Assembly (NCBI GenBank): GCA_009760855.2
Contig: WPIO01000036.1
Span: forward strand, 481,001-545,000
Reading direction: 5' to 3'
Length of the DNA stretch: 64,000 nucleotides
Origin: Cristatella mucedo
Taxonomy: Eukaryota; Bryozoa; Phylactolaemata; Cristatellidae
Part shown: positions 1-46,756 of the stretch, piece after piece
Position numbering within the stretch: the first letter of the stretch is position 1
How the letters are laid out: the number at the start of each line of letters is the position of its first letter
Made by a program: the position numbers and the translations under genes
The notes under the pieces: generated by a model
What the model was told of the DNA's origin: nothing
The model's input: the letters and a program-made list of their open reading frames with translations, nothing else
The model's database searches: none

Positions 1-695
1 TGGTACCTGCAAGTTCAACGTTTATATATCTAGTTTTCCAAAACATCTTATAAGATGAAGAAATCATCCCATTTTATGCGAAAGTTGAAATCCACATACT
101 CGTATTCCTCTGAAATGATGACCGAAGCTTCGAACTTAATTTCTCGGGATTTTGACTGGCACCTTCACCTGGAATATTCGGCCTAATCTAGCCTCCGACT
201 GGAGAGCAGGATAGCTGCAGGTGTGACCAAGTGTGTCACGAATATTTGCTGCATCAATAGTGCGATTGCACTACCAGCTATCTAGCTACTGCCAGCTCAG
301 CACGTTTCCCTGGGTGCTTTAAAACTAGGCTTACGATTGTAAAACGTATACCGTAAATTATGCTGCCACTGCTCCTGCTGTGAACATAACGTATTAAGAC
401 CAAAGACCTGTTCGTATACTAGCACTGACCGCCGCAGCCGGCTTTTAAGCACAAGTTTAGAAAAGACCTCGATGAACAGGTCTCAAAAAAGCAGTCGTAG
501 AAGCACAGCACCAAGCTGCCCCTTCAAAGCAACACATTCCAGCCAGATGCCACCGACAGCTCCGATTAAATCAATATAACGAAGTGTGATTGTAAACAAG
601 AACATTGCTCGAAAGATTTTGGCTTATTTTATTCAGGCGTCATTTAGACTGATGTTCAGCTACTGATAACACGTAGATGCTTATTCCATAAAACA

Positions 696-701
696 TTTAT
701 T
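696..701 (-). terminator. Polyadenylation signal of array gene copy 1
   Basis: AATAAA on the minus strand, about 120 bases past the TGA at 822-824. A second AATAAA follows at 628-633. The same pair is present in the other units. Confidence 0.5.
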
Positions 702-821
702 TACAGATTCCACAGGACAATTAAAGAAGCATCTACAAGGTGTGACACACCCGCCAAGCATGGAACAATGTGATTCACAAATGCTTCAACAGCAGACAGC
801 CGAGAAAATTTCACTTGGTCA

Positions 822-1746
822 TCACCGTCTGCGGACACAGGCAGCACTGTTCAATTCCAGGTATGAATTCGGCTCAGGAGTCACGCAAATCGGCATTCCA
901 CCGAGAGCAGTAGTACACGTTCCCCAGACACGGTCCTGGAAAGAATAACAATGGATCGTGACGTTGATTTATACTAGAGCGTTCAAAGGCAGCCCTGCCG
1001 AAATATTTACTTGGTCCCTTACCGATTTTCTGTAACCGAAGGTGCATGGACGTGGCGACGAGCTCGTTGTACTATTCCCAGTCACCTGAAAGGCACGGAC
1101 GGATATCTAGCCTTGGATTGCCTAGGCATCACAGCATCACTCAACAGCCACAGTTTCCACCAACGCTCACCGTAATGGGACAATCTCGAGTAGAAACTAC
1201 GCTGAGCGTGTCCGTTCCATTGATTAGTCCTCGACAGATGGGGACAGCTTCGTTTAGTACGCCTTGGCAACTGCCGCTCACTGTTAGCTGTTTGCAAAGG
1301 AGCAATAAAGAGTTCAAGTGCGCCGATTCAAAAGCTATACGATATCAATTGAAGGGAGTTGCGCGCGTTGACAGCTATTCCACTAGGATTCTTACGTAAT
1401 TAGTTATCCAAAATGAGCAGCTCCTAGCGCTCCTTGCTTCTCGGCCGCCGCCATCATGGCCGCCGTCAGGTAAGCGATTCGTTTCGTGCTGACCCTGCAA
1501 ATGCCACTGCACCAAATGAATGCTGCTTTTGCGAATACTGCCATCCGAGAGAATCAATTTGGCTACGGCGATTGTTAGAAAATACGCCCTTAATTTCCGA
1601 AAAGTGCGTGAAAAGGCACGAGCTAAGCACCGCAGCTGATGACTGCTTACCCCTTCTGAGATATCCAGCGGCAACGTCTGGCTCAAAGCCGCCCATAGTA
1701 GAAGCAACGAGACCACTCGTACATTCATCGGAGAAGCGGCCATCAT
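822..1746 (-). CDS. Secreted cysteine-containing 129-residue protein, array copy 1
   Basis: Join of complement 1651-1746, 1171-1287, 1023-1085 and 822-935 (32, 39, 21 and 37 codons plus TGA). Every intron is GT-AG (gtaagc/aacag, gtgagc/ttcag, gtaagg/tccag) and every junction is phase 0. Exon 1 is a signal peptide: basic MNVR, then the core VVSLLLLWAAL, with likely cleavage near SQT/LP. The mature chain has seven Cys spaced C-x10-C-x17-C-x16-C-x13-C-x9-C-x15-C and the sequons NGT and NST. Exons 2 and 4 share G-[ST]-C...L...PIC. An acceptor (ttaattacag) abuts the first ATG. A 5' UTR exon probably ends at 1930 before gtaaga, and a TATA box lies at 2016-2021. AATAAA (minus strand) is at 696-701, with another at 628-633. 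The structure is seen directly; function and family are unknown. Export from the cell is inferred from the signal peptide. Confidence 0.75.
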
Positions 1747-2015
1747 CTGTAATTAAAGTTCACTCCGTCTTACCGTACCATCAAGCAAATTAGCCTGTTG
1801 CCTCCTCAATTTCGACGCCTATGTCTAAAACCACCTTTCACCACTGTACATGTGTCCCACATTCAACAGTATGATGCAAAGGCTGAAGCACAGCGTCACA
1901 GCCAGAAAGCCACGCACGACGAGTCTTACGGTTTGCAAAATCAGCAGCGACAAGACAAGCGAAGGCCACGTAGTCTGCAAAGGTGAAGATGCAGCCAGCC
2001 TTTGTCGAACACCAA

Positions 2016-2021
2016 TTTATA
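2016..2021 (-). promoter_or_regulatory. TATA box of array gene copy 1
   Basis: The minus strand reads GCTATAAATTGG. About 90 bases downstream, after a short non-coding exon ending at 1930 (TTTGCAAACC, then gtaaga), an intron of about 183 bases leads to the acceptor at 1747-1749. The start of transcription would be expected around 1985-1992. Confidence 0.55.
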
Positions 2022-2904
2022 GCCGTTAGTATCCATGGAGGTTGAATGGGCCGTTACGCTTCTTGGACCTGTATGGATGCTGCAATGTGAGCTTAGCGCT
2101 AAGCTGCATATGCCGCACAGTAACAGCGCCGACGCGAGCAGGCGTCGAAGCACAAGCACAATAACTAGTTTTGACAGTGTTACAAAGGCCCTGTAGCGAC
2201 AGTGGCTAGTGAAGTGCAATCCATGGTTACAAAAACGCAGCGCGCCTCGCGACGCTACGCCCCTCACAAGCACCGCTCACACCAGTCGTACTATAGACTA
2301 GAAGCGATGTTGACGACGACCCATTCTTGTCGCACGAAACGATGGCATGCAGGCGGTAGCAGAGCGCCCACTGTAAGCAAGAGCGCAAACTCTTTGATAT
2401 TGCAAACACATGTCATTCCATAAGACCAGTCTATCCCATGCAGCAGAGACGCGAGAGCACAGCACAAATCAAACATAACTGCTGCAAACCCGCTCAAACG
2501 GTCAGAGAGATGGGGTTCTTTGTGACAAATGATGCTGATCTGCAGGCGCTAGACGTTTACAAACTCGCAAGAAGTACTGTCAAGTTCACACCTCAAAAGA
2601 AATGCTCACTGGTGCCCCTCGGTCTCAACCCAGGTGTAAGCTGGTCGCCCTTCACGACCCAGGTCATGACTTCGAGTCCTGGGACGTGACGACGAGCACT
2701 CCTTCAATGCCCACAACAAGGTAGGATAGCTGTACAGGCTCTTCGGTCGATATGAAAACGAGGACGCTAATTCCGCCAACTATTTTCTTACTGAGTCGTC
2801 GATGCCACGCTAACACACGCAGGGACACCTATGCAACTTACGTATGCAATAAAGCTCGGTAGGAATCAACAGAGCTATAGACGAAATGTAAAAATGTTTA
2901 GTTC

Positions 2905-3203
2905 GCTCGGACAACTTAATCTCTATTCAGGCGCTTCACACTTGCAACCGAGATTAGGCCCGCGACTTCGGTCGTCTAATACACTCGCCTTCACCTCGGT
3001 CGCTACAGGCGATTGCCTTATCCATGGGACGAACTTTCGTGTCGCCATTAACCATGAACTATGGCACGTTGAGTGCATGCCGAGCTGGTTTGGTCCAGGG
3101 GTTAAGGTGCTCGGCCCGACCAAGGTCTGTCTGAGGTCGCACGCTCGAGCCCTGATGCATATGTGCATATATGCATATATTCAGTTCTCTTGGGGCGCTA
3201 TAG
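2905..3203. repeat. Inverted pair of SINE-like elements, unit 1
   Basis: The left part reads actta-atctctattcaggcgcttcac, the SINE tail on the minus strand. The right part (about 3085-3203) reads tggtccagcggttaagg (A-box-like), then cgctcgagccc (B-box-like), and ends in gttctcttggggcgctata, a SINE on the plus strand. The two halves face each other around a middle of about 100 bases. The right part matches the elements at 51044-51181 and 54493-54632. Confidence 0.75.
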
Positions 3204-4436
3204 AAAGGAAATATATATATAACAATTATAATCACGAGCCGCTATCAATCTCAAACACTGCTAACCTCAAAGCACATCGGTATAGACATGTTTCACTGCT
3301 GCTTGCTTAGCTTAAATTAGGGCCGTTCTGCATCAGGCTTTTAATCAAAACCAACCGCCTCGAGCTCTAGGAGGTTTCGACACTCGACTTCGCCACCTCG
3401 TCTGGGTCCGAATTCAGTAACTAACATCGAGCTACGGAAGCCTTCTTCGCAGGCGTCCCTTTCGTTCGTTCATTCTTTATATTCCTAGAAAAAACTGATG
3501 TGGCTGTATAGCGTCTTCTGAAGCACAGGCTTTTCATGCGTTCGCATCATCAGCACATCACTTGGCTTAAGGTGGTCTGTCTTGACCTGCAGCTAGTTCT
3601 CAATTTATACCTGAAGAGAATTCAAATTAAAGCATGTTTCGGAAACACAGCTGAAATAGCCGCAGACCTTCTGTGCAGCTGCACGTAAGACTGCCAATTC
3701 GATTTATTTCCATCGTTGCTGGCCTGGCCTCATCTAGGCAGTCTCGTTAGCACTAAAGTCACTCATTTGATCTACGCCTTATGTTAGTCATCCAACATAC
3801 CTTCCTTGAGCTTGTACGCACAGACAGACTTGCAAGATCGACTGAACAGTATAGTTACTAAAATTCGAACATTTTAATGCCTACGCTATTACTATATGCT
3901 GCTGATTCAGCAGCGTTAGAATAGTTCTAACCGCACGAACGTCAATGACATGCCTGCCCGAGCGAAGAATGTCACTGCGTTCACCAAGTGTCCAAGTTAG
4001 TGAAATCGTAGCCGAAAAAGCCGCACAGATGATATATCAGCGAGAACAGCGGACTTACCACAGCAGGCACAAACCTGCAGACGAGTTGTGAAAACGTGGA
4101 AACTCAGAACTCTTTGGACACAATCACCTTTTACTGGATCTCATCATCGATTGTCACCCATCAAACCAGCCGTGACCCGTGACGAGAGGCAGCCAGTCAG
4201 GCCGACTAGAGTTGAGCGCCAGTTGATAGATACTCTTTGTCAATTGCCTCGGGGCCCTTCAATTACAGTTTCATCAAGAAAGAGCACTTCGCACCACGAT
4301 ATGTAAATATTCAAAGTGAGCAGACATTTATTGCAACTAGAAGAAATGCTCAGCCCTATTACTGCTTGCTGAATGTGCACTAGACTGGGAAAAGCAGTCA
4401 GCCTAAGGAGGCAGGATGGAAGCGGCTGCAGGAGCA

Positions 4437-4442
4437 TATAAG
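4437..4442 (+). promoter_or_regulatory. TATA-like element on the plus strand of the unit
   Basis: gcatataagtactcc has TATAAG in a typical context, but no coding exon can be placed just downstream. The same site is in every unit. It may be chance. Confidence 0.2.
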
Positions 4443-4802
4443 TACTCCATAAACTAGTCTCTGCACGCAACTAACTAGTAAATTGCCGAGACCTTGGGTC
4501 CGCCCCAACGACGGCCTTCCAAGAAGTACTAATACGGATGAAGAGTGTTGCTACTCTCTAGCTCAACTCGTAGTTATACTCAGCTCATATCGATACCGGA
4601 TTCAAAGGAGGCACGAAAAAGTAGACGCTGGCTGATTGGACAGCCTCACTACTATCGCGGCCAAAGAGCCTCGGTGGCCATAAAAGTGACTTCTATACGG
4701 AATTAAAAAAAATAAAATCCTAGCTGATTTAACAGAATCTTTTTTATAGCGACAGAAGTGCCTTCACGGCTGTCGCCACCGCTTGCAGTAGCGATAAGGA
4801 AT

Positions 4803-4890
4803 CGCCCACAGCAGGAATCGAACTCACGACCTCGGAACAGAGAGGTCGTGAAAGCGACCGCCTTACCTAGCCTTACCTAGCCTTACCTAG
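4803..4890 (-). repeat. tRNA-like SINE head with ccttacctag subrepeats, unit 1
   Basis: On the minus strand it reads ggctaggtaaggcggtcgc, then a strong hairpin with stem cgacctc/gaggtcg, then gagttcgattcct, a good Pol III B box. A cloverleaf cannot be drawn, so it is a tRNA-derived element and not a tRNA gene. The right end has three ccttacctag repeats. This copy has an extra ga in the hairpin loop. Confidence 0.6.
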
Positions 4891-5681
4891 CGTGCCATCA
4901 CGGAAAGATTACCAGCAGTTTCAGAGTAACAATACCATCAGCAAAATATATCAAAGGCAGAATACAGGCTACAAAAGTTCAACCACTGTAAGTGGCTTAG
5001 AAACAACGACGAGATTCTTAGCGTGTCTGTATTGAGTTTCTTTCAATCCGCCCAAGAGCGCTGACAGATTAATCAACTCGAGAAAGTCAAATCGACATTA
5101 GCCCGGCGGACAATTCTAACACAAATTCGTTTAAGCCGCTACGAACGAAGGCGTTGTACGCCAAGAAGTAGCCAGTGTCAATGAAAAAGCGTTGCGTAAA
5201 GCTTAGAAAAGCCAGCTACAGCGTGAAAGCCTCACACACGGAATAGCGCACACAAGTGCACGGAAAGAAGCTGCGGGCCACAGGTCAGTAGTGCCGCTGG
5301 TTTTTCAACTGAACCACACCGCGCTCCGGTGAGCGAAGTAAGCGCGGCCGAATAAATACCGAATCTCACGGTACAGACGAATAGCTTAGCGAAACGGGTG
5401 CATCTTTGTATAAACCGTAATCATGCAAATTCGTTGCATTTGCGGCTAGTAGCAAGAAGCGCGTTTCCATTTTTTGGCGCGAACGGCCGGCGGCGCCATC
5501 ACCAAAAGTGTACTCGTCTAAGCCTGGGACCATGTAGTCTTTACCGTCTCGTTTCACGAACCGCTACAAGCTTCGAGCATTGTCACAGGCTGAGTTGGAG
5601 TACACACGTGTCACTATGCTCACCTTCAGTGCCACAGCGAACGATTAAAAGCTTTCGCGGCGGTCAGCCGGTCCCCGGTTA

Positions 5682-6542
5682 ATGCCGGCGTCGATTGCAC
5701 GGAGCTCCGCTACCGCTATGCCAGCGCAAAATGCAACTCCTTACAGTCCTTCCAAGCTTACGCTGCACTGCAAATGTATTATAATGCACAAAAGTAACAA
5801 ATACTTCGGTCTGCCCACAACAGTAAGCGGTAGACGGAGGGCAGGCTGACCCTGAACCGGACGTAAAAAGTAATGCTCGTGGTTCTTCGTGCCACCTAAA
5901 AGTAACTTTAAAGGCTCCGTAGTGCTGCAAATAGAGACAATATTTCACTATCATAATTCATTTGGTTCACATTGCGTTGAAACTTCAACGTAAAGAGATT
6001 GAGGCTAAGATGACCTGTGTGCTACGTTACCACAGTGCACATCCGGCCGTAGCTAGGTATTGAGCCCAGCCGAAGTTGCTCCTTCTCGACTTCGGATTTG
6101 TGAAGCTTCCACTGATACCTGGTTTCCAGTTTTGCAATGGACACTTGCGCGGAGGTCAATCTTGCTTTAAAAGAGGGTTTTTTCCTCATTGTAAGTAAAG
6201 TTCTAGCGAGCCGGCGTTTTAGTTCGGGTTCGCAAAGCGATAGGAACAGCTATCAGGGAAGTGCCGCACAGCCTTAATCTGAGCAGCTAGCAGCAAAATA
6301 CTGTGCAACCTTGTTCTTAGCACCTGGCACACACTGTTGTGTATCCTTGACGACCGGACAGTGCGTGTAAGGGCCCTGGCGTGAAGATTTGGATGAAGAG
6401 TTTCAACTCATGTGCCAGATTCGCATAAAACAATGAAAACATGAGGTTTTTCTCTGCTAATTTTCGCCGCAGCATAGCTCTATCGACGACCTCATGCATA
6501 GCCATTGCAGGGAGGCTCGGAGTCGTAGCGGCTTCTAGCTGA
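5682..6542 (+). CDS. Possible cysteine-rich protein gene on the plus strand, unit 1 (5' end unresolved)
   Basis: Four short segments with fair splice sites join in one open frame: 5747-5822 (acceptor ccttacag, donor gtaagc), 6130-6190 (gtttccag, gtaagt), 6321-6366 (gttcttag, gtaagg) and 6473-6542 (a pyrimidine-rich stretch then cgccgcag; ends in TGA). Phases match across all junctions. The chain has eight Cys, ordered C-x-C, C, C, CC, C, C, which recalls small disulfide-rich secreted proteins. A later acceptor at 6510 would give a shorter tail. Weaknesses: no convincing signal-peptide exon upstream (the frame extends back to ATG 5682 without a hydrophobic core), no clear AATAAA, and such short frames can be open by chance. 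A TATA-like TATAAA lies at 5408-5413. Function unknown. Confidence 0.27.
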
Positions 6543-7661
6543 CCGGCGACGCACCTGACGAGGTAAGCAACTTAGACATTTACGAAGCCACACAGCTCCA
6601 AGCAAAACTACAAGTTCGCCGTAAGCTTTGAATGAATCAAGCAATAATGTGGGCAACTGAACGTTTCATATTGTAGCATAGTCTCCGGTGTATTTGCTGA
6701 CTTCAACTGAAATGGTTGGCACCCTACGCCCAGGGAAACTTTGTCAGTAGTTTTCCGTTCGTCCGCAAAGCGTGATCACTTCACCACGTTCTCAAATCTC
6801 GGCAGCCCACTAAGCCAATTCTGTGATGGTGTTGAACGGTACGATGGTACCTGCAAGTTCAACGTTTAATATCTAGTTTTCCAAAACATCTTATAAGATG
6901 AAGAAATCATCCCATTTTATGCGAAAGTTGAAATCCACATACTCGTATTCCTCTGAAATGATGACCGAAGCTTCGAACTTAATTTCTCGGGATTTTGACT
7001 GGCACCTTCACCTGGAATATTCGGCCTAATCTAGCCTCCGACTGGAGAGCAGGATAGCTGCAGGTGTGACCAAGTGTGTCACGAATATTTGCTGCATCAA
7101 TAGTGCGATTGCACTACCAGCTATCTAGCTACTGCCAGCTAAGCACGTTTCCCTGGGTGCTTTAAAACTAGGCCTACGATTGTAAAACGTATACCGTAAA
7201 TTATGCTGCCACTGCTCCTGCTGTGAACATAACGTATTAAGACCAAAGACCTGTTCGTATACTAGCACTGACCGCAGCCGGCTTTTAAGCACAAGTTTAG
7301 AAAAGACCTCGATGAACAGGTCTCAAAAAAGCAGTCGTAGAAGCACAGCACCAAGCATCCCCTTCAAAGCAACACATTCCAGCCAGATGCCACCGACAGC
7401 TCCGATTAAATCAATATAATGAAGTGTGATTGTAAACAAGAACATTGCTCGAAAGATTTTGGCTTATTTTATTCAGGCGTCATTTAGACTGATGTTCAGC
7501 TACTAATAACACGTAGATGCTTATTCCATAAAACATTTATTTACAGATTCCACAGGACAATTAAAGAAGCATCTACAAGGTGTGACACACCCGCCAAGCA
7601 TGGAACAATGTGATTCACAAATGCTTCAACAGCAGACAGCCGAGCAAATTTCACTTGGCCA

Positions 7662-8586
7662 TCACCGTCTGCGGACACAGGCAGCACTGTTCAATTCCAG
7701 GTATGAATTCGGCTCAGGAGTCACGCAAATCGGCATTCCACCGAGAGCAGTAGTACACGTTCCCCAGACACGGTCCTGGAAAGAATTACAATGGATCGTG
7801 ACGTTGATTTATACTAGAGCATTCAAAGGCAGCCCTGCCGAAATATTTACTTGGTCCCTTACCGATTTTCTGTAACCGAAGGTGCATGGACGTGGCGACG
7901 AGCTCGTTGTACTATTCCCAGTCACCTGAAAGGCACGGACGGATATCTAGCCTTGGATTGCCTAGGCATCACAGCATCACTCAACAGCCACAGTTTCCAC
8001 CAACGCTCACCGTAATGGGACAATCTCGTGTAGAAACTACGCTGAGCGTGTCCGTTCCATTGATTAGTCCTCGACAGATGGGGACAGCTCCGTTTAGTAC
8101 GCCTTGGCAACTGCCGCTCACTGTTAGCTGTTTGCAAAGGAGCAATAAAGAGTTCAAGTGCGCCGATTCAAAAGCTATACGATATCAATTGAAGGGAGTT
8201 GCGCGCGTTGACAGCTATTCCACTAGGATTCTTACGTAATTAGTTATCCAAAATGAGCAGCTCCTAGCGCTCCTTGCTTCTCGGCCGCCGCCATCATGGC
8301 CGCCGTCAGGTAAGCGATTCGTTTCGTGCTGACCCTGCAAATGCCACTGCACCAAATGAATGCTGCTTTTGCGAATACTGCCATCCGAGAGAATCAATTT
8401 GGCTACGGCGATTGTTAGAAAATACGCCCTTAATTTCCGAAAAGTGCGTGAAAAGGCACGAGCTAAGCACCGCAGCTGATGACTGCTTACCCCTTCTGAG
8501 ATATCCAGCGGCAACGTCTGGCTCAAAGCCGCCCATAGTAGAAGCAACGAGACCACTCGTACATTCATCGGAGAAGCGGCCATCAT
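7662..8586 (-). CDS. Secreted cysteine-containing protein, array copy 2
   Basis: Exons complement 8491-8586, 8011-8127, 7863-7925 and 7662-7775, with all splice sites intact. The only protein change against copy 1 is Glu45 to Gly (GGA at the codon near 8091). A Thr codon in exon 2 is ACA here and ACT in copy 1, a silent change. AATAAA is at 7536-7541 on the minus strand. Confidence 0.75.
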
Positions 8587-8855
8587 CTGTAATTAAAGTT
8601 CACTCCGTCTTACCGTACCATCAAGCAAATTAGCCTGTTGCCTCCTCAATTTCGACGCCTATGTCTAAAACCACCTTTCACCACTGTACATGTGTCCCAC
8701 ATTCAACAGTATGATGCAAAGGCTGAAGCACAGCGTCACAGCCAGAAAGCCACGCACGACGAGTCTTACGGTTTGCAAAATCAGCAGCGACAAGACAAGC
8801 GAAGGCCACGTAGTCTGCAAAGGTGAAGATGCAGCCAGCCTTTGTCGAACACCAA

Positions 8856-8861
8856 TTTATA
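8856..8861 (-). promoter_or_regulatory. TATA box of array gene copy 2
   Basis: Same GCTATAAATTGG context as copy 1, with the same downstream 5' UTR exon and donor. Confidence 0.55.
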
Positions 8862-11540: not shown

Positions 11541-11626
11541 CGCCCACAGCAGGAATCGAACTCACGACCTCGGAACAGAGGTCGTGAAAGCGACCGCCTT
11601 ACCTAGCCTTACCTAGCCTTACCTAG
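11541..11626 (-). repeat. tRNA-like SINE head with subrepeats, unit 2
   Basis: Same element; three ccttacctag repeats. Confidence 0.6.
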
Positions 11627-14400: not shown

Positions 14401-15325
14401 TCACCGTCTGCGGACACAGGCAGCACTGTTCAATTCCAGGTATGAATTCGGCTCAGGAGTCACGCAAATCGGCATTCCACCGAGAGCAGTAGTACACGTT
14501 CCCCAGACACGGTCCTGGAAAGAATTACAATGGATCGTGACCTTGATTTATACTAGAGCGTTCAAAGGCAGCCCTGCCGAAATATTTACTTGGTCCCTTA
14601 CCGATTTTCTGTAACCGAAGGTGCATGGACGTGGCGACGAGCTCGTTGTACTATTCCCAGTCACCTGAAAGGCACGGACGGATATCTAGCCTTGGATTGC
14701 CTAGGCATCACAGCATCACTTGACAGCCACAGTTTCCACCAACGCTCACCGTAATGGGACAATCTCGTGTAGAAACTACGCTGAGCGTGTCCGTTCCATT
14801 GATTAGTCCTCGACAGATGGGGACAGCTTCGTTTAGTACGCCTTGGCAACTGCCGCTCACTGTTAGCTGTTTGCAAAGGAGCAATAAAGAGTTCAAGTGC
14901 GCCGATTCAAAAGCTATACGATATCAATTGAAGGGAGTTGCGCGCGTTGACAGCTATTCCACTAGGATTCTTACGTAATTAGTTATCCAAAATGAGCAGC
15001 TCCTAGCGCTCCTTGCTTCTCGGCCGCCGCCATCATGGCCGCCGTCAGGTAAGCGATTCGTTTCGTGCTGACCCTGCAAATGCCACTGCACCAAATGAAT
15101 GCTGCTTTTGCGAATACTGCCATCCGAGAGAATCAATTTGGCTACGGCGATTGTTAGAAAATACGCCCTTAATTTCCGAAAAGTGCGTGAAAAGGCACGA
15201 GCTAAGCACCGCAGCTGATGACTGCTTACCCCTTCTGAGATATCCAGCGGCAACGTCTGGCTCAAAGCCGCCCATAGTAGAAGCAACGAGACCACTCGTA
15301 CATTCATCGGAGAAGCGGCCATCAT
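14401..15325 (-). CDS. Secreted cysteine-containing protein, array copy 3
   Basis: Exons complement 15230-15325, 14750-14866, 14602-14664 and 14401-14514. The protein is identical to copy 1. Two changes in intron 2 (near 14720) remove the stop codon that would follow read-through of the exon 2 donor; the splice sites are untouched. AATAAA is at 14275-14280 on the minus strand. Confidence 0.75.
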
Positions 15326-15594
15326 CTGTAATTAAAGTTCACTCCGTCTTACCGTACCATCAAGCAAATTAGCCTGTTGCCTCCTCAATTTCGACGCCTA
15401 TGTCTAAAACCACCTTTCACCACTGTACATGTGTCCCACATTCAACAGTATGATGCAAAGGCTGAAGCACAGCGTCACAGCCAGAAAGCCACGCACGACG
15501 AGTCTTACGGTTTGCAAAATCAGCAGCGACAAGACAAGCGAAGGCCACGTAGTCTGCAAAGGTGAAGATGCAGCCAGCCTTTGTCGAACACCAA

Positions 15595-21411: not shown

Positions 21412-22336
21412 TCACCGTCTGCGGACACAGGCAGCACTGTTCAATTCCAGGTATGAATTCGGCTCAGGAGTCACGCAAATCGGCATTCCACCGAGAGCAG
21501 TAGTACACGTTCCCCAGACACGGTCCTGGAAAGAATTACAATGGATCGTGACCTTGATTTATACTAGAGCGTTCAAAGGCAGCCCTGCCGAAATATTTAC
21601 TTGGTCCCTTACCGATTTTCTGTAACCGAAGGTGCATGGACGTGGCGACGAGCTCGTTGTACTATTCCCAGTCACCTGAAAGGCACGGACGGATATCTAG
21701 CCTTGGATTGCCTAGGCATCACAGCATCACTCAACAGCCACAGTTTCCACCAACGCTCACCGTAATGGGACAATCTCGTGTAGAAACTACGCTGAGCGTG
21801 TCCGTTCCATTGATTAGTCCTCGACAGATGGGGACAGCTTCGTTTAGTACGCCTTGGCAACTGCCGCTCACTGTTAGCTGTTTGCAAAGGAGCAATAAAG
21901 AGTTCAAGTGCGCCGATTCAAAAGCTATACGATATCAATTGAAGGGAGTTGCGCGCGTTGACAGCTATTCCACTAGGATTCTTACGTAATTAGTTATCCA
22001 AAATGAGCAGCTCCTAGCGCTCCTTGCTTCTCGGCCGCCGCCATCATGGCCGCCGTCAGGTAAGCGATTCGTTTCGTGCTGACCCTGCAAATGCCACTGC
22101 ACCAAATGAATGCTGCTTTTGCGAATACTGCCATCCGAGAGAATCAATTTGGCTACGGCGATTGTTAGAAAATACGCCCTTAATTTCCGAAAAGTGCGTG
22201 AAAAGGCACGAGCTAAGCACCGCAGCTGATGACTGCTTACCCCTTCTGAGATATCCAGCGGCAACGTCTGGCTCAAAGCCGCCCATAGTAGAAGCAACGA
22301 GACCACTCGTACATTCATCGGAGAAGCGGCCATCAT
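21412..22336 (-). CDS. Secreted cysteine-containing protein, array copy 4
   Basis: Exons complement 22241-22336, 21761-21877, 21613-21675 and 21412-21525. The protein is identical to copy 1, with the silent ACA Thr codon seen in copies 2 and 3. AATAAA is at 21286-21291 on the minus strand. Confidence 0.75.
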
Positions 22337-25470: not shown

Positions 25471-25546
25471 CGCCCACAGCAGGAATCGAACTCACGACCT
25501 CGGAACAGAGGTCGTGAAAGCGACCGCCTTACCTAGCCTTACCTAG
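25471..25546 (-). repeat. tRNA-like SINE head with subrepeats, unit 4
   Basis: Same element; two ccttacctag repeats. Confidence 0.6.
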
Positions 25547-27203: not shown

Positions 27204-28322
27204 CCGGCGACGCACCTGACGAGGTAAGCAACTTAGACATTTACGAAGCCACACAGCTCCAAGCAAAACTACAAGTTCGCCGTAAGCTTTGAATGAATCA
27301 AGCAATAATGTGGGCAACTGAACGTTTCATATTGTAGCATAGTCTCCGGTGTATTTGCTGACTTCAATTGAAATGGTTGGCACCCTACGCCCAGGGAAAC
27401 TTTGTCAGTAGTTTTCCGTTCGTCCGCAAAGCGTGATCACTTCACCACGTTCTCAAATCTCGGCAGCCCACTAAGCCAATTCTGTGATGGTGTTGAACGG
27501 TACGATGGTACCTGCAAGTTCAACGTTTAATATCTAGTTTTCCAAAACATCTTATAAGATGAAGAAATCATCCCATTTTATGCGAAAGTTGAAATCCACA
27601 TACTCGTATTCCTCTGAAATGATGACCGAAGCTTCGAACTTAATTTCTCGGGATTTTGACTGGCACCTTCACCTGGAATATTCGGCCTAATCTAGCCTCC
27701 GACTGGAGAGCAGGATAGCTGCAGGTGTGACCAAGTGTGTCACGAATATTTGCTGCATCAATAGTGCGATTGCACTACCAGCTATCTAGCTACTGCCAGC
27801 TCAGCACGTTTCCCTGGGTGCTTTAAAACTAGGCTTACGATTGTAAAACGTATACCGTAAATTATGCTGCCACTGCTCCTGCTGTGAACATAACGTATTA
27901 AGACCAAAGACCTGTTCGTATACTAGCACTGACCGCAGCCGGCTTTTAAGCACAAGTTTAGAAAAGACCTCGATGAACAGGTCTCAAAAAAGCAGTCGTA
28001 GAAGCACAGCACCAAGCTGCCCCTTCAAAGCAACACATTCCAGCCAGATGCCACCGACAGCTCCGATTAAATCAATATAATGAAGTGTGATTGTAAACAA
28101 GAACATTGCTCGAAAGATTTTGGCTTATTTTATTCAGGCGTCATTTAGACTGATGTTCAGCTACTAATAACACGTAGATGCTTATTCCATAAAACATTTA
28201 TTTACAGATTCCACAGGACAATTAAAGAAGCATCTACAAGGTGTGACACACCCGCCAAGCATGGAACAATGTGATTCACAAATGCTTCAACAGCAGACAG
28301 CCGAGAAAATTTCACTTGGTCA

Positions 28323-29250
28323 TCACCGTCTGCGGACACAGGCAGCACTGTTCAATTCCAGGTATGAATTCGGCTCAGGAGTCACGCAAATCGGCATTCC
28401 ACCGAGAGCAGTAGTACACGTTCCCCAGACACGGTCCTGGAAAGAATTACAATGGATCGTGACCTTGATTTATACTAGAGCGTTCAAAGGCAGCCCTGCC
28501 GAAATATTTACTTGGTCCCTTACCGATTTTCTGTAACCGAAGGTGCATGGACGTGGCGACGAGCTCGTTGTACTATTCCCAGTCACCTGAAAGGCACGGA
28601 CGGATATCTAGCCTTGGATTGCCTAGGCATCACAGCATCACTCAACAGCCACAGTTTCCACCAACGCTCACCGTAATGGGACAATCTCGAGTAGAAACTA
28701 CGCTGAGCGTGTCCGTTCCATTGATTAGTCCTCGACAGATGGGGACAGCTTCGTTTAGTACGCCTTGGCAACTGCCGCTCACTGTTAGCTGTTTGCAAAG
28801 GAGCAATAAAGAGTTCAAGTGCGCCGATTCAAAAGCTATACGATATCAATTGAAGGGAGTTGCGCGCGTTGACAGCTATTCCACTAGGATTCTTACGTAA
28901 TTAGTTATCCAAAATGAGCAGCTCCTAGCGCTCCTTGCTTCTCGGCCGCCGCCATCATGGCCGCCGTCAGGTAAGCGATTCGTTTCGTGCTGACCCTGCA
29001 AATGCCACTGCACCAAATGAATGCTGCTTTTGCGAATACTGCCATCCGAGAGAATCAATTTGGCTACGGCGATTGTTAGAAAATACGCCCTTAATTTCCG
29101 AAAAGTGCGTGAAAAGGCACGAGCTAAGCACCGCAGCTGATGACTGCTTACCCCTTCTGAGATATCCAGCGGCAACGTCTGGCTCAAAGCCGCCCATAGT
29201 AGAAGCAACGAGACCACTCGTACATTCATCGGAGAAGCGGCCATCATCAT
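28323..29250 (-). CDS. Secreted cysteine-containing protein, array copy 5
   Basis: Exons complement 29152-29250, 28672-28788, 28524-28586 and 28323-28436. One extra ATG codon at the start of exon 1 (MMM instead of MM) gives 130 residues; otherwise identical to copy 1. The insertion is a three-base slippage next to the splice acceptor and should not harm the signal peptide. AATAAA is at 28197-28202 on the minus strand. Confidence 0.75.
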
Positions 29251-29519
29251 CTGTAATTAAAGTTCACTCCGTCTTACCGTACCATCAAGCAAATTAGCCT
29301 GTTGCCTCCTCAATTTCGACGCCTATGTCTAAAACCACCTTTCACCACTGTACATGTGTCCCACATTCAACAGTATGATGCAAAGGCTGAAGCACAGCGT
29401 CACAGCCAGAAAGCCACGCACGACGAGTCTTACGGTTTGCAAAATCAGCAGCGACAAGACAAGCGAAGGCCACGTAGTCTGCAAAGGTGAAGATGCAGCC
29501 AGCCTTTGTCGAACACCAA

Positions 29520-29525
29520 TTTATA
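29520..29525 (-). promoter_or_regulatory. TATA box of array gene copy 5
   Basis: Unchanged TATAAA on the minus strand, with the 5' UTR exon and donor conserved. Confidence 0.55.
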
Positions 29526-30571
29526 GCCGTTAGTATCCATGGAGGTTGAATGGGCCGTTACGCTTCTTGGACCTGTATGGATGCTGCAATGTGAGCTTAG
29601 CGCTAAGCTGCATATGCCGCACAGTAACAGCGCCGACGCGAGCAGGCGTCGAAGCACAAGCACAATAACTAGTTTTGACAGTGTTACAAAGGCCCTGTAG
29701 CGACAGTGGCTAGTGAAGTGCAATCCATGGTTACAAACGCAGCGCGCCTCGCGACGCTACGCCCCTCACAAGCACCGCTCACACCAGTCGTACTATAGAC
29801 TAGAAGCGATGTTGACGACGACCCATTCTTGTCGCACGAAACGATGGCATGCAGGCGGTAGCAGAGCGCCCACTGTAAGCAAGAGCGCAAACTCTTTGAT
29901 ATTGCAAACACATGTCATTCCATAAGACCAGTCTATCCCATGCAGCAGAGACGCGAGAGCACAGCACAAATCAAACATAACTGCTGCAAACCCGCTCAAA
30001 CGGTCAGAGAGATGGGGTTCTTTGTGACAAATGATGCTGATCTGCAGGCGCTAGACGTTTACAAACTCGCAAGAAGTACTGTCAAGTTCACACCTCAAAA
30101 GAAATGCTCACTGGTGCCCCTCGGTCTCAACCCAGGGGTAAGCTGGTCGCCCTTCACGACCCAGGTCATGACTTCGAGTCCTGGGACGTGACGACGAGCA
30201 CTCCTTCAATGCCCACAACAAGGTAGGATAGCTGTACAGGCTCTTCGGTCGATATGAAAACGAGGACGCTAATTCCGCCAACTATTTTCTTACTGAGTCG
30301 TCGATGCCACGCTAACACACGCAGGGACACCTATGCAACTTACGTATGCAATAAAGCTCGGTAGGAATCAACAGAGCTATAGACGAAATGTAAAATCCCC
30401 ATGTCAATAAAGGAAGAGCACTCTTTACCACGTCCTCAGAGAGAGGGCAACATCATCATAGAACCAGCTCCAGTATAACACTCTCACGGATAAAGCCTAA
30501 GCTTCAGCTAACCACTGTCCAACACGGAATTGTATGGCCTGAGTATTGATGTCTTTTACTTGTTTAGTTCG

Positions 30572-30869
30572 CTCGGACAACTTAATCTCTATTCAGGCGC
30601 TTCACACTTGCAACCGAGATTAGGCCCGCGACTTCGGTCGTCTAATACACTCGCCTTCACCTCGGTCGCTACAGGCGATTGCCTTATCCATGGGACGAAC
30701 TTTCGTGTCGCCATTAACCATGAACTATGGCACGTTGAGTGCATGCCGAGCTGGTTTGGTCCAGCGGTTAAGGTGCTCGGCCCGACCAAGGTCTGTCTGA
30801 GGTCGCACGCTCGAGCCCTGATGCATATGTGCATATATGCATATATTCAGTTCTCTTGGGGCGCTATAG
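30572..30869. repeat. Inverted pair of SINE-like elements, unit 5
   Basis: Same structure and length as unit 3. Confidence 0.75.
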
Positions 30870-32466
30870 AAAGGAAATATATATATAACAATTATAATCA
30901 CGAGCCGCTATCAATCTCAAACACTGCTAACCTCAAAGCACATCGGTATAGACATGTTTCACTGCTGCTTGCTTAGCTTAAATTAAGGCCGTTCTGCATC
31001 AGGCTTTTAATCAAAACCAACCGCCTCGAGCTCTAGGAGGTTTCGACACTCGACTTCGCCACCTCGTCTGGGTCCGACGTCAATAACTAACGTCGAGTTA
31101 CGGACGCCTTCTTCGCAGGCGTCCCTTTCGTTCGTTCATTCTTTATATTCCTAGAAAAAACTGATGCGGCTGTATAGCGTCTTCTGAAGCACAGGCTTTT
31201 CATGCGTTCGCATCATCAGCACATCACTTGGCTTAAGGTGGTCTGTCTTGACCTGCAGCTAGTTCTCAATTTATACCTGAAGAGAATTCAAATTAAAGCA
31301 TGTTTCGGAAACACAGCTGAAATAGCCGCAGACCTTCTGTGCAGCTGCACGTAAGACTGCCAATTCGATTTATTTCCATCGTTGCTGGCCTAGCCTCATC
31401 TAGGCAGTCTCGTTAGCACTAAAGTCACTCATTTGATCTACGCCTTATGTTAGTCATCCAACATACCTTCCTTGAGCTTGTACGCACAGACAGACTTGCA
31501 AGATCGACTGAACAGTATAGTTACTAAAATTCGAACATTTTAATGCCTACGCTATTACTATATGCTGCTGATTCAGCAGCGTTAGAATAGTTCTAACCGC
31601 ACGAACGTCAATGACATGCCTGCCCGAGCGAAGAATGTCACTGCGTTCACCAAGTGTCCAAGTTAGTGAAATCGTAGCCGAAAAAGCCGCACAGATGATA
31701 TATCAGCGAGAACAGCGGACTTACCACAGCAGGCACAACCTGCAGACGAGTTGTGAAAACGTGGAAACTCAGAACTCTTTGGACACAATCACCTTTTACT
31801 GGATCTCATCATCGATTGTCACCCATCAAACCAGCCGTGACCCGTGACGAGAGGCAGCCAGTCAGGCCGACTAGAGTTGAGCGCCAGTTGATAGATACTC
31901 TTTGTCAATTGCCTCGGGGCCCTTCAATTACAGTTTCATCAAGAAAGAGCACTTCGCACCACGATATGTAAATATTCAAAGTGAGCAGACATTTATTGCA
32001 ACTAGAAGAAATGCTCAGCCCTATTACTGCTTGCTGAATGTGCACTAGACTGGGAAAAGCAGTCAGCCTAAGGAGGCAGGATGGAAGCGGCTGCAGGAGC
32101 ATATAAGTACTCCATAAACTAGTCTCTGCACGCAACTAACTAGTAAATTGCCGAGACCTTGGGTCCGCCCCAACGACGGCCTTCCAAGAAGTACTAATAC
32201 GGATGAAGAGTGTTGCTACTCTCTAGCTCAACTCGTAGTTATACTCAGCTCATATCGATACCGGATTCAAAGGAGGCACGAAAAAGTAGACGCTGGCTGA
32301 TTGGACAGCCTCACTACTATCGCGGCCAAAGAGCCTCGGTGGCCATAAAAGTGACTTCTATACGGAATTAAATAAAATAAATCCTAGCTGATTTAACAGA
32401 ATCTTTTTTATAGCGACAGAAGTGCCTTCACGGCTGTCGCCACCGCTTGCAGTAGCGATAAGGAAT

Positions 32467-32542
32467 CGCCCACAGCAGGAATCGAACTCACGACCTCGGA
32501 ACAGAGGTCGTGAAAGCGACCGCCTTACCTAGCCTTACCTAG
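32467..32542 (-). repeat. tRNA-like SINE head with subrepeats, unit 5
   Basis: Same element; two ccttacctag repeats. Unit 6 has lost it. Confidence 0.6.
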
Positions 32543-33336
32543 CGTGCCATCACGGAAAGATTACCAGCAGTTCCAGAGTAACAATACCATCAGCAAAATA
32601 TATCAAAGGCAGAATACAGGCAACAAAAGTTCAACCACTGTAAGTGGCTTAGAAACAACGACGAGATTCTTAGCGTGTCTGTATTGAGTTTCTTTCAATC
32701 CGCCCAAGAGCGCTGACAGATTAATCAACTCGAGAAAGTCAAATCGACATTAGCCCGGCGGACAATTCTAACACAAATTCGTTTAAGCCGCTACGAACGA
32801 AGGCGTTGTACGCCAAGAAGTAGCCAGTGTCAATGAAAAAGCGTTGCGTAAAGCTTAGAAAAGCCAGCTACAGCGTGAAAGCCTCACACACGGAATAGCG
32901 CACACAAGTGCACGGAAAGAAGCTGCGGGCCACAGGTCAGTAGTGCCGCTGGTTTTTCAACTGAACCACACCGCGCTCCGGTGAGCGAAGTAAGCGCGGC
33001 CGAATAAAAACCGAATCTCACGGTACAGACGAATAGCTTAGCGAAACGGGTGCATCTTTGTATAAACCGTAATCATGCAAATTCGTTGCATTTGCGGCTA
33101 GTAGCAAGAAGCGCGTTTCCATTTTTTTTTGGCGCGAACGGCCGGCGGCGCCATCACCAAAAGTGTACTCGTCTAAGCCTGGGACCATGTAGTCTTTACC
33201 GTCTCGTTTCACGAACCGCTACAAGCTTCGAGCATTGTCACAGGCTGAGTTGGAGTACACACGTGTCACTATGCTCACCTTCAGTGCCACAGCGAACGAT
33301 TAAAAGCTTTCGCGGCGGTCAGCCGGTCCCCGGTTA

Positions 33337-34199
33337 ATGCCGGCGTCGATTGCACGGAGCTCCGCTACCGCTATGCCAGCGCAAAATGCAACTCCTTACA
33401 GTCCTTCCAAGCTTACGCTGCACTGCAAATGTATTATAATGCACAAAAGTAACAAATACTTCGGTCTGCCCACAACAGTAAGCGGTAGACGGAGGGCAGG
33501 CTGACCCTGAACCGGACGTAAAAAGTAATGCTCGTGGTTCTTCGTGCCACCTAAAAGTAACTTTAAAGGCTCCGTAGTGCTGCAAATAGAGACAATATTT
33601 CACTATCATAATTCATTTGGTTCACATTGCGTTGAAACTTCAACGTAAAGAGATTGAGGCTAAGATGACCTGTGTGCTACGTTACCACAGTGCACATCCG
33701 GCCGTAGCTAGGTATTGAGCCCAGCCGAAGTTGCTCCTTCTCGACTTCGGATTTGTGAAGCTTCCACTGATACCTGGTTTCCAGTTTTGCAATGGACACT
33801 TGCGCGGAGGTCAATCTTGCTTTAAAAGAGGGTTTTTTCCTCATTGTAAGTAAAGTTCTAGCGAGCCGGCGTTTTAGTTCGGGTTCGCAAAGCGATAGGA
33901 ACAGCTATCAGGGAAGTGCCGCACAGCCTTAATCTGAGCAGCTAGCAGCAAAATACTGTGCAGCCTTGTTCTTAGCACCTGGCATACACTGTTGTGTATC
34001 CTTGACGACCGGACAGTGCGTGTAAGGGCCCTGGCGTGAAGATTTGGATGAAGAGTTTCAACTCATGTGCCAGATTCGCATAAAACAATGAAAACATGAG
34101 GTTTTTCTCTGCTAAATTTTTCGCCGCAGCATAGCTCTATCGACGACCTCATGCATAGCCATTGCAGGGAGGCTCGGAGTCGTAGCGGCTTCTAGCTGA
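33337..34199 (+). CDS. Plus-strand cysteine-rich candidate, unit 5
   Basis: Segments 33402-33477, 33785-33845, 33976-34021 and from 34130. The frame is intact and carries the Ile variant. Two extra bases lie in the tract before the last acceptor. Unit 6 lacks this region. Confidence 0.25.
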
Positions 34200-35318
34200 C
34201 CGGCGACGCACCTGACGAGGTAAGCAACTTAGACATTTACGAAGCCACACAGCTCCAAGCAAAACTACAAGTTCGCCGTAAGCTTTGAATGAATCAAGCA
34301 ATAATGTGGGCAACTGAACGTTTCATATTGTAGCATAGTCTCCGGTGTATTTGCTGACTTCAATTGAAATGGTTGGCACCCTACGCCCAGGGAAACTTTG
34401 TCAGTAGTTTTCCGTTCGTCCGCAAAGCGTGATCACTTCACCACGTTCTCAAATCTCGGCAGCCCACTAAGCCAATTCTGTGATGGTGTTGAACGGTACG
34501 ATGGTACCTGCAAGTTCAACGTTTAATATCTAGTTTTCCAAAACATCTTATAAGATGAAGAAATCATCCCATTTTATGCGAAAGTTGAAATCCACATACT
34601 CGTATTCCTCTGAAATGATGACCGAAGCTTCGAACTTAATTTCTCGGGATTTTGACTGGCACCTTCACCTGGAATATTCGGCCTAATCTAGCCTCCGACT
34701 GGAGAGCAGGATAGCTGCAGGTGTGACCAAGTGTGTCACGAATATTTGCTGCATCAATAGTGCGATTGCACTACCAGCTATCTAGCTACTGCCAGCTCAG
34801 CACGTTTCCCTGGGTGCTTTAAAACTAGGCTTACGATTGTAAAACGTATACCGTAAATTATGCTGCCACTGCTCCTGCTGTGAACATAACGTATTAAGAC
34901 CAAAGACCTGTTCGTATACTAGCACTGACCGCAGCCGGCTTTTAAGCACAAGTTTAGAAAAGACCTCGATGAACAGGTCTCAAAAAAGCAGTCGTAGAAG
35001 CACAGCACCAAGCTGCCCCTTCAAAGCAACACATTCCAGCCAGATGCCACCGACAGCTCCGATTAAATCAATATAATGAAGTGTGATTGTAAACAAGAAC
35101 ATTGCTCGAAAGATTTTGGCTTATTTTATTCAGGCGTCATTTAGACTGATGTTCAGCTACTAATAACACGTAGATGCTTATTCCATAAAACATTTATTTA
35201 CAGATTCCACAGGACAATTAAAGAAGCATCTACAAGGTGTGACACACCCGCCAAGCATGGAACAATGTGATTCACAAATGCTTCAACAGCAGACAGCCGA
35301 GAAAATTTCACTTGGTCA

Positions 35319-36243
35319 TCACCGTCTGCGGACACAGGCAGCACTGTTCAATTCCAGGTATGAATTCGGCTCAGGAGTCACGCAAATCGGCATTCCACCG
35401 AGAGCAGTAGTACACGTTCCCCAGACACGGTCCTGGAAAGAATTACAATGGATCGTGACCTTGATTTATACTAGAGCGTTCAAAGGCAGCCCTGCCGAAA
35501 TATTTACTTGGTCCCTTACCGATTTTCTGTAACCGAAGGTGCATGGACGTGGCGACGAGCTCGTTGTACTATTCCCAGTCACCTGAAAGGCACGGACGGA
35601 TATCTAGCCTTGGATTGCCTAGGCATCACAGCATCACTCAACAGCCACAGTTTCCACCAACGCTCACCGTAATGGGACAATCTCGAGTAGAAACTACGCT
35701 GAGCGTGTCCGTTCCATTGATTAGTCCTCGACAGATGGGGACAGCTTCGTTTAGTACGCCTTGGCAACTGCCGCTCACTGTTAGCTGTTTGCAAAGGAGC
35801 AATAAAGAGTTCAAGTGCGCCGATTCAAAAGCTATACGATATCAATTGAAGGGAGTTGCGCGCGTTGACAGCTATTCCACTAGGATTCTTACGTAATTAG
35901 TTATCCAAAATGAGCAGCTCCTAGCGCTCCTTGCTTCTCGGCCGCCGCCATCATGGCCGCCGTCAGGTAAGCGATTCGTTTCGTGCTGACCCTGCAAATG
36001 CCACTGCACCAAATGAATGCTGCTTTTGCGAATACTGCCATCCGAGAGAATCAATTTGGCTACGGCGATTGTTAGAAAATACGCCCTTAATTTCCGAAAA
36101 GTGCGTGAAAAGGCACGAGCTAAGCACCGCAGCTGATGACTGCTTACCCCTTCTGAGATATCCAGCGGCAACGTCTGGCTCAAAGCCGCCCATAGTAGAA
36201 GCAACGAGACCACTCGTACATTCATCGGAGAAGCGGCCATCAT
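35319..36243 (-). CDS. Secreted cysteine-containing protein, array copy 6
   Basis: Exons complement 36148-36243, 35668-35784, 35520-35582 and 35319-35432. The protein is identical to copy 1. The truncation of this unit lies about 2.8 kb upstream of the gene's promoter, so the gene is complete. AATAAA is at 35193-35198 on the minus strand. Confidence 0.75.
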
Positions 36244-36512
36244 CTGTAATTAAAGTTCACTCCGTCTTACCGTACCATCAAGCAAATTAGCCTGTTGCCT
36301 CCTCAATTTCGACGCCTATGTCTAAAACCACCTTTCACCACTGTACATGTGTCCCACATTCAACAGTATGATGCAAAGGCTGAAGCACAGCGTCACAGCC
36401 AGAAAGCCACGCACGACGAGTCTTACGGTTTGCAAAATCAGCAGCGACAAGACAAGCGAAGGCCACGTAGTCTGCAAAGGTGAAGATGCAGCCAGCCTTT
36501 GTCGAACACCAA

Positions 36513-36518
36513 TTTATA
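36513..36518 (-). promoter_or_regulatory. TATA box of array gene copy 6
   Basis: Unchanged TATAAA on the minus strand, with the 5' UTR exon and donor conserved. Confidence 0.55.
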
Positions 36519-37566
36519 GCCGTTAGTATCCATGGAGGTTGAATGGGCCGTTACGCTTCTTGGACCTGTATGGATGCTGCAATGTGAGCTTAGCGCTAAG
36601 CTGCATATGCCGCACAGTAACAGCGCCGACGCGAGCAGGCGTCGAAGCACAAGCACAATAACTAGTTTTGACAGTGTTACAAAGGCCCTGTAGCGACAGT
36701 GGCTAGTGAAGTGCAATCCATGGTTACAAACGCAGCGCGCCTCGCGACGCTACGCCCCTCACAAGCACCGCTCACACCAGTCGTACTATAGACTAGAAGC
36801 GATGTTGACGACGACCCATTCTTGTCGCACGAAACGATGGCATGCAGGCGGTAGCAGAGCGCCCACTGTAAGCAAGAGCGCAAACTCTTTGATATTGCAA
36901 ACACATGTCATTCCATAAGACCAGTCTATCCCATGCAGCAGAGACGCGAGAGCACAGCACAAATCAAACATAACTGCTGCAAACCCGCTCAAACGGTCAG
37001 AGAGATGGGGTTCTTTGTGACAAATGATGCTGATCTGCAGGCGCTAGACGTTTACAAACTCGCAAGAAGTACTGTCAAGTTCACACCTCAAAAGAAATGC
37101 TCACTGGTGCCCCTCGGTCTCAACCCAGGGGTAAGCTGGTCGCCCTTCACGACCCAGGTCATGACTTCGAGTCCTGGGACGTGACGACGAGCACTCCTTC
37201 AATACCCACAACAAGGTAGGATAGCTGTACAGGCTCTTCGGTCGATATGAAAACGAGGACGCTAATTCCGCCAACTATTTTCTTGCTGAGTCGTCGATGC
37301 CACGCTAACACACGCAGGGACACCTATGCAACTTACGTATGCAATAAAGCTCGGTAGGAATCAACAGAGCTATAGACGAAATGTAAAATCCCCATGTCAA
37401 TAAAGGAAGAGCACTCTTTACCACGTCCTCAGAGAGAGAGGGCAACATCATCATAGAACCAGCTCCAGTATAACACTCTCACGGATAAAGCCTAAGCTTC
37501 AGCTAACCACTGTCCAACACGGAATTGTATGGCCTGAGTATTGATGTCTTTTACTTGTTTAGTTCG

Positions 37567-37864
37567 CTCGGACAACTTAATCTCTATTCAGGCGCTTCAC
37601 ACTCGCAACCGAGATTAGGCCCGCGACTTCGGTCGTCTAATACACTCGCCTTCACCTCGGTCGCTACAGGCGATTGCCTTATCCATGGGACGAACTTTCG
37701 TGTCGCCATTAACCATGAACTATGGCACGTTGAGTGCATGCCGAGCTGGTTTGGTCCAGCGGTTAAGGTGCTCGGCCCGACCAAGGTCTGTCTGAGGTCG
37801 CACGCTCGAGCCCTGATGCATATGTGCATATATGCATATATTCAGTTCTCTTGGGGCGCTATAG
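37567..37864. repeat. Inverted pair of SINE-like elements, unit 6
   Basis: Same structure; one substitution (cactcgc for cacttgc) near 37602. Confidence 0.75.
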
Positions 37865-39317
37865 AAAGGAAATATATATATAACAATTATAATCACGAGC
37901 CGCTATCAATCTCAAACACTGCTAACCTCAAAGCACATCGGTATAGACATGTTTCACTGCTGCTTGCTTAGCTTAAATGAAGGCCGTTCTGCATCAGGCT
38001 TTTAATCAAAACCAACCGCCTCGAGCTCTAGGAGGTTTCGACACTCGACTTCGCCACCTCGTCTGGGTCCGAATTCAGTAACTAACATCGAGCTACGGAA
38101 GCCTTCTTCGCAGGCGTCCCTTTCGTTCGTTCATTCTTTATATTCCTAGAAAAAACTGATGTGGCTGTATAGCGTCTTCTGAAGCACAGGCTTTTCATGC
38201 GTTCGCATCATCAGCACATCACTTGGCTTAAGGTGGTCTGTCTTGACCTGCAGCTAGTTCTCAATTTATACCTGAAGAGAATTCAAATTAAAGCATGTTT
38301 CGGAAACACAGCTGAAATAGCCGCAGACCTTCTGTGCAGCTGCACGTAAGACTGCCAATTCGATTTATTTCCATCGTTGCTGGCCTGGCCTCATCTAGGC
38401 AGTCTCGTTAGCACTAAAGTCACTCATTTGATCTACGCCTTATGTTAGTCATCCAACATACCTTCCTTGAGCTTGTACGCACAGACAGACTTGCAAAGAT
38501 CGACTGAACAGTATAGTTACTAAAATTCGAACATTTTAATGCCTACGCTATTACTATATGCTGCTGATTCAGCAGCGTTAGAATAGTTCTAACCGCACGA
38601 ACGTCAATGACATGCCTGCCCGAGCGAAGAATGTCACTGCGTTCACCAAGTGTCCAAGTTAGTGAAATCGTAGCCGAAAAAGCCGCACAGATGATATATC
38701 AGCGAGAACAGCGGACTTACCACAGCAGGCACAAACCTGCAGACGAGTTGTGAAAACGTGGAAACTCAGAACTCTTTGGACACAATCACCTTTTACTGGA
38801 TCTCATCATCGATTGTCACCCATCAAACCAGCCGTGACCCGTGACGAGAGGCAGCCAGTCAGGCCGACTAGAGTTGAGCGCCAGTTGATAGATACTCTTT
38901 GTCAATTGCCTCGGGGCCCTTCAATTACAGTTTCATCAAGAAAGAGCACTTCGCACCACGATATGTAAATATTCAAAGTGAGCAGACATTTATTGCAACT
39001 AGAAGAAATGCTCAGCCCTATTACTGCTTGCTGAATGTGCACTAGACTGGGAAAAGAAGTCAGCCTATGGAGGCAGGATGGAAGCGGCTGCAGGAGCATA
39101 TAAGTACTCCATAAACTAGTCTCTGCACGCAACTAAGTAGTAAATTGCCGATACCTTGGGTCCGCCCCAACGACGGCCTTCCAAGAAGTACTAATACGGA
39201 TGAAGAGTGTTGCTACTCTCTAGCTCAACTCGTAGTTATACTCAGCTCATATCGATACCGGATTCAAAGGAGGCACGAAAAAGTAGACGCTGGCTGATTG
39301 GACGGAGGGTGCACACT

Positions 39318-46692: not shown

Positions 46693-46756
<64 letters not shown>

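Follow-up and report, generated by a model that had tools for sequence, protein, structure and literature searches.

A young tandem array of six spliced genes for a predicted small secreted seven-cysteine protein

The window, by which we mean the whole 64-kb stretch of contig C299 analysed here, opens with a tandem array in which every gene-bearing unit carries a short candidate gene on the minus strand. The original prediction, made from the letters of the window, had proposed six near-identical genes for an unrecognised secreted protein within DNA that would normally be masked as satellite. The features of the array are as follows.

1..39303, strand not assigned: tandem array within the window, five full units and one partial unit, delimited by self-comparison and unit alignment
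1-6844, 6845-13583, 13584-20592, 20593-27505 and 27506-34501: full units 1-5 (6844, 6739, 7009, 6913 and 6996 bp)
34502-39303: partial unit 6, which carries gene copy 6
2012..2024, minus strand: TATA stretch of copy 1, GGCTATAAATTGG
8852-8864, 15591-15603, 22602-22614, 29516-29528 and 36509-36521: identical TATA stretches of copies 2-6
1747..1929, minus strand: possible intron in the 5' untranslated region (UTR) of copy 1 (GTAAGA ... ACAG), predicted; donor motif in all six copies
1651..1746, minus strand: coding exon 1 of copy 1, 96 nt, with a signal-peptide-like start
1171..1287, minus strand: coding exon 2 of copy 1, 117 nt, with cysteines (Cys) 1-3 and the first sequon, NGT
1023..1085, minus strand: coding exon 3 of copy 1, 63 nt, with the second sequon, NST, and Cys 4
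822..935, minus strand: coding exon 4 of copy 1 with the stop codon, 114 nt, with Cys 5-7 and the strongest codon-position bias
679..702, minus strand: stretch with the AATAAA signal of copy 1; those of the other copies at 7519, 14258, 21269, 28180 and 35176
7662..8586, minus strand: coding region of copy 2 (exons 8586-8491, 8127-8011, 7925-7863, 7775-7662), with Glu45Gly
14401..15325, minus strand: coding region of copy 3 (exons 15325-15230, 14866-14750, 14664-14602, 14514-14401)
21412..22336, minus strand: coding region of copy 4 (exons 22336-22241, 21877-21761, 21675-21613, 21525-21412)
28323..29250, minus strand: coding region of copy 5 (exons 29250-29152, 28788-28672, 28586-28524, 28436-28323), with an extra Met
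35319..36243, minus strand: coding region of copy 6 (exons 36243-36148, 35784-35668, 35582-35520, 35432-35319)
39318..39497, plus strand: older remnant of unit positions 6502-6681, 90-92% identical, adjoining the right edge of the array

Four coding exons, a stop codon, a TATA stretch and an AATAAA signal are present in all six copies, and in each the three coding introns are GT-AG and of phase 0. The gene model of the original prediction was recovered in full, down to exact intron coordinates in copy 1 (1650-1288, 1170-1086, 1022-936), the Glu45Gly change in copy 2 and the additional Met in copy 5. Read by eye from the translation, the predicted product has 129 residues (130 in copy 5), a hydrophobic, signal-peptide-like N-terminus, two N-glycosylation sequons and seven Cys spaced C-x10-C-x17-C-x16-C-x13-C-x9-C-x15-C. 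Each unit with a gene copy thus appears to hold one spliced gene with four coding exons, probably for a secreted Cys-bearing protein.

The product has no credible relative in the libraries searched, in agreement with the earlier claim that it belongs to no recognised family. Pfam gave no match at E ≤ 10 for the array product and only two sub-threshold matches (E 0.1 and 0.23) for that of the paralog C332a, introduced below. NCBIfam gave none, a single-sequence search of the PDB gave none and a small-profile search there gave one match at E 4.9. Among 5.8 billion proteins, 21 candidates shared words with the product, none of them reaching E ≤ 10. One candidate class was considered and rejected: evasins of class A (PF19429), like the predicted product, are small secreted glycoproteins with several Cys. 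Their Cys pattern differs from the spacing seen here, the product had no Pfam match, and the class had no match in the genome, where its control also matched nowhere.

The array continues beyond the left edge of the window to C299:479101, where it ends in a partial unit without a gene; window and left flank together give about 41 kb and six gene copies. A DNA search of the 572-Mb assembly, in which locus counts are lower bounds, returned the six array copies at 99-100% identity, the next match being at 93%. This and other searches of the genome gave eight further family loci: C299b (93% identical to the array unit), C332a, C332b and C332c (91-92%), C299c, C299d, C299e and C673. The three C332 copies form a second tandem array on another contig, in which the unit measures about 9.64 kb and the copies share 99.2-99.5% identity. 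Decay among these loci takes many forms. C332c has a frameshift in exon 1; in C299b the AG preceding exon 3 is gone, as is the one preceding the start codon; exon 2 of C299c is mostly replaced; C673 and C299d are each broken in several places, C673 lacking the donor of intron 2; and C299e, read by eye, lacks a GT donor following exon 1 and carries an out-of-frame exon 3 of 70 nt. The family thus totals 14 loci, eight intact and six broken or probably broken.

Exon structure has outlasted much of this decay. In an alignment of 13 copies, the lengths 96/117/63/117 (the last including one codon past the stop) are kept in nine, six of them array copies, and not in C332c, C299c, C673 and C299d. Splice sites are mostly kept, and the intron 1 donor GTAAGC is found in 13 of 13. 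The distant locus C299e matches the array in the length of exon 2 (117 nt) and of exon 4 (38 codons with the stop). Across these two exons its DNA is 57% identical, 32 of 76 residues are the same (42%), and all six Cys are kept, three of them in exon 2; a rough estimate puts the probability that six Cys codons survive at that nucleotide identity at 1.5e-4 if sites are taken as independent. Two further candidates were rejected as family members, C549 (E 0.74; 35% identity over 61 residues, most Cys positions not kept) and C1 (E 1.5; 40% over 40 residues). Both are one-frame matches that run across exon boundaries, are rich in Ser, Thr, Gly and Ala and show no DNA similarity to the unit; their membership is unproven and the matches are probably due to chance.

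Coding constraint is clearest in comparisons with the distant paralog C673. By the Nei-Gojobori method, synonymous (dS) and nonsynonymous (dN) divergence between array copy A1 and C673 were 0.476 and 0.208, compared with 0.132 and 0.069 for C332a and 0.068 and 0.056 for C299b. Using a neutral simulation whose substitution spectrum was taken from non-coding columns in the same alignment, we found an excess of synonymous change against C673 over all exons (P=0.006 for A1, 0.0025 for C332a, 0.002 for C299b) and over exons 2-4 (P=0.0035, 0.001 and 0.001, respectively); these P values, and those given below for this test, are uncorrected and come from comparisons that share sequences. With the frame shifted by 1 or 2, none of six tests was significant (P 0.086-0.98; A1-C332a, A1-C673 and C299b-C332a, one of these pairs involving C673). 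Fitted to six rows (A1, A2, C299b, C332a, C332c and C673, leaving out C299c, C299d, C299e, C332b and the remaining array copies, and masking stops and codons with gaps), a codon model gave a log-likelihood of -1022.82 with omega free and -1026.10 with omega fixed at 1 (P ~0.01). The original prediction had held that homologous units with broken exons in related species would speak against a gene. Looked at within this genome, six of the eight paralogs outside the array are broken or probably broken. Because the comparisons with the broken C673 and the Cys kept in the broken C299e still indicate past coding constraint, we read the history of this family as one of gene birth and death. Frame-specific constraint together with conserved splice sites and phase marks it as a predicted protein-coding family rather than satellite DNA.

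The explanation that we prefer, and hold with fair assurance, is that each array copy is a TATA-driven gene for a small secreted, N-glycosylated protein with seven Cys, that it belongs to a lineage-restricted family of rapid turnover, and that it was recently amplified in tandem for dosage. The gene would be read from its TATA promoter, and from its sequence we infer transcription, secretion, disulfide folding and glycosylation of the product. Members of the family would multiply and decay quickly. Recent tandem duplication, probably through unequal exchange, would have given this locus its six near-identical copies, and a sister member would have been raised separately to three copies at C332. 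Because one member was raised to six copies and a sister member to three, the likely benefit would be a larger amount of the same product.

Several observations weigh against this explanation. An odd number of Cys is unusual in monomeric disulfide-folded proteins. C332a and C332b, the only intact members among the eight paralogs, both lack Cys 4. The coding signal exceeds chance in the comparisons with C673 and does not in most comparisons among younger paralogs: over all exons, P was 0.48 for A1-C299b, 0.13 for A1-C332a and 0.096 for C299b-C332a; over exons 2-4 it was 0.53, 0.17 and 0.04, and over exon 4 alone 0.28, 0.03 and 0.009. Changes at the three codon positions among A1, C299b, C332a and C673 (11/9/8 in exon 1, 11/10/16 in exon 2, 6/5/6 in exon 3 and 6/8/18 in exon 4) show no bias in exons 1 and 3, and the synonymous test between A1 and C299e over exons 2 and 4 was not significant (P=0.13). 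Intron 1, moreover, has diverged less than any of the coding exons in C299b, C332a and C299c, though not in C673, and the least diverged window of C332 lies in intron 1 (1251-1500, 5.0%) and not in the promoter. Finally, the amplification could be neutral.

The weak frame signal in the younger comparisons, the placing of intron 1 and promoter among the best conserved parts and the lack of a credible database relative would all suit a non-coding satellite or regulatory RNA array whose exons are chance open frames. We judge this very improbable, since exons 2-4 show frame-specific constraint against C673, C299e keeps the lengths of exons 2 and 4 and its Cys at 57% DNA identity, and the mostly kept splice sites argue against a non-coding array; Rfam and tRNA scans of the 64-kb window found nothing.

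Conservation upstream of the coding exons is marked. The TATA sequence TATAAATTG is kept in C299b, C332a-c, C299c and C673 and changed in C299d. In windows of 250 bp, divergence at 2001-2250, which takes in the promoter and the TATA stretch, was 5.2% for C332, 3.6% for C299b and 3.2% for C299c, the lowest of any window for the latter two; outside 1001-2250 it was 8.0-18.5% (21 windows), 8.0-16.6% (15 windows) and 11.6-29.3% (22 windows), respectively. The low divergence of promoter and intron 1 may reflect either regulatory constraint or gene conversion. The high conservation of intron 1 would also be expected if the true product retained it, and a 123-codon open frame that starts at the ATG of the gene does run into it (copy 1, complement 1746-1375). 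This extension is open in all six array copies and in C332b, and largely so in C299b, C332a and C299c; its changes between A1 and C332a fall 4/4/8 by codon position. That bias is not consistent (5/1/6 for A1-C299b, 5/12/11 for A1-C299c, 18/22/16 for A1-C673), stops occur early, near the end of the extension, in C299b, C299c and C332a, and the intron 1 donor is kept in every aligned copy, so that we find an intron-retained product scarcely credible.

The array itself is recent. Its six units differ pairwise by 0.20-0.44% of aligned bases, and the left partial unit differs from units 1-5 by 0.53-0.74%, gaps being excluded in both cases (the longest, of 296 bp, is in unit 2). All six copies are intact, as the original prediction stated; this carries little weight as evidence, because at such divergence the 390 coding bases of a copy should carry, on expectation, less than one substitution, and intact copies are predicted with or without selection. 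The alignment of copies 1-5 holds 46 single-nucleotide polymorphisms (SNPs), two of them coding, about as many as length predicts. These figures, together with the 6 of 14 family loci that are broken or probably broken, are what one would see if a once functional gene had been carried along by a recent segmental duplication and the array now had no dosage role. We regard this neutral history as unlikely, but as deserving real weight. Against it stand the second tandem amplification within the same family, the conservation of the promoter, and the absence of any of the 46 SNPs from unit stretch 1500-2500 (upstream region, promoter, 5' UTR, exon 1 and part of intron 1; Poisson 1.2e-3, for a stretch picked after the counts were seen).

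What a dosage-driven product might do depends on the host. Contig C688 is mitochondrial, and its COX1 reads with TGA as Trp. By eye, one of its strands carries, in succession, cox3, atp6, cox1, nad3, two 2.1-kb repeats, nad1 and nad6, with trnK, trnA and trnN between cox3 and atp6 (ARAGORN placed some tRNA calls on the opposite strand), and its A+T content is 54% over 9 kb. The stretch of about 2.1 kb, which includes the end of nad3, occurs twice in tandem. The cox3-K-A-N run resembles the mollusc-type gene order. One-strand coding and the A+T content of C688 resemble those of brachiopods: one study gives 57.2-59.1% A+T and one-strand coding for all three brachiopods, and one-strand coding also for eight of eight annelids and for other groups (PMC2678162), so that the strand trait is shared with annelids. 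A DnaJ-like frame near C299:1.04 Mb matches a contig without a name at 82%. Among the best 120 of its 7992 matches, many of them nameless, those with a name reach 60% at most and belong to molluscs, a brachiopod, annelids, a nemertean, echinoderms, nematodes, vertebrates and others, with no arthropod name among them. The host is probably not an arthropod, and is likely a lophotrochozoan; a brachiopod, perhaps an articulate one, would be a guess. COX1-like stretches with stops, possibly nuclear mitochondrial copies, lie off the mitochondrial contig at C166:4375626, C83:2826-3735, C549:2641741 and C299:634220.

Among the roles named in the original prediction, a salivary or silk function is not supported, because neither arthropod RR cuticle proteins (PF00379) nor tick lipocalins (PF02098) had a candidate in the genome, both being searched without a positive control in another genome, while the control PF04258 (signal peptide peptidase) matched at two loci of the same genome. 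A role in tick saliva was rejected on the same absence, and the mitochondrial contig also speaks against a tick. Among the nearest known parallels are the tick-only salivary families, lineage-specific small secreted proteins that have multiplied (PMC7396615). The array product shares with them a signal-peptide-like start, a short Cys-bearing mature part, fast evolution and growth by gene duplication; unlike them, it has no credible Pfam, NCBIfam or PDB match and sits in a probably lophotrochozoan host without a tick lipocalin candidate.

The secretion-type start and conserved Cys point to an extracellular location for the predicted protein. Its fast change, the number of broken relatives and the two separate recent amplifications would suit a product secreted for defence or for some other purpose in which dosage matters. 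The likeliest role, though at well short of even chances, is that of a defence or surface protein outside the cells of what would be a marine invertebrate, and a matrix or mucus component, the next choice, fits nearly as well. Tentatively, and with more doubt than conviction, the family may consist of lineage-restricted secreted effectors in which the odd Cys could link two chains, with expression under a conserved promoter and intron 1 and a dose raised by the two amplifications. To our knowledge, the effectors of this animal group are little studied; if expressed, these genes would represent a new extracellular protein family for it. The locus also illustrates how easily short-exon genes inside young repeat arrays may be lost to repeat masking and assembly collapse, and one genome here appears to display gene birth, dosage amplification and decay at once, in intact and broken loci of graded divergence.

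Several further copies of the interspersed repeats at unit positions ~2900-3220 and ~4700-4870 lie in other loci, and the second repeat, inspected by eye, shows tRNA-like A and B boxes. On C299, at about 1.03-1.04 Mb and close to older members of the family, lie a 624-codon transposase-like open frame, identified by eye, and the DnaJ-like gene mentioned above, which is intronless. To the right of the array, a direct repeat of about 2 kb (39509-41561 and 47392-49720, 87-90% identical) flanks a lone frame on the plus strand (46088-46170), which begins like a signal peptide and has possible donors after it. This frame has no family or database match, and a cystatin was rejected, there being no Q-x-V-x-G-like motif on the plus strand of the window. 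A perfect run of 20 GCC triplets stands at 46693-46752. Exons of a signal peptide peptidase gene lie directly right of the array at 52791-62130 (plus strand), with PF04258 matches at 58535-58798 and 61417-61977 and a first exon placed by eye at 52.8 kb; a second member of that family is found on C663.

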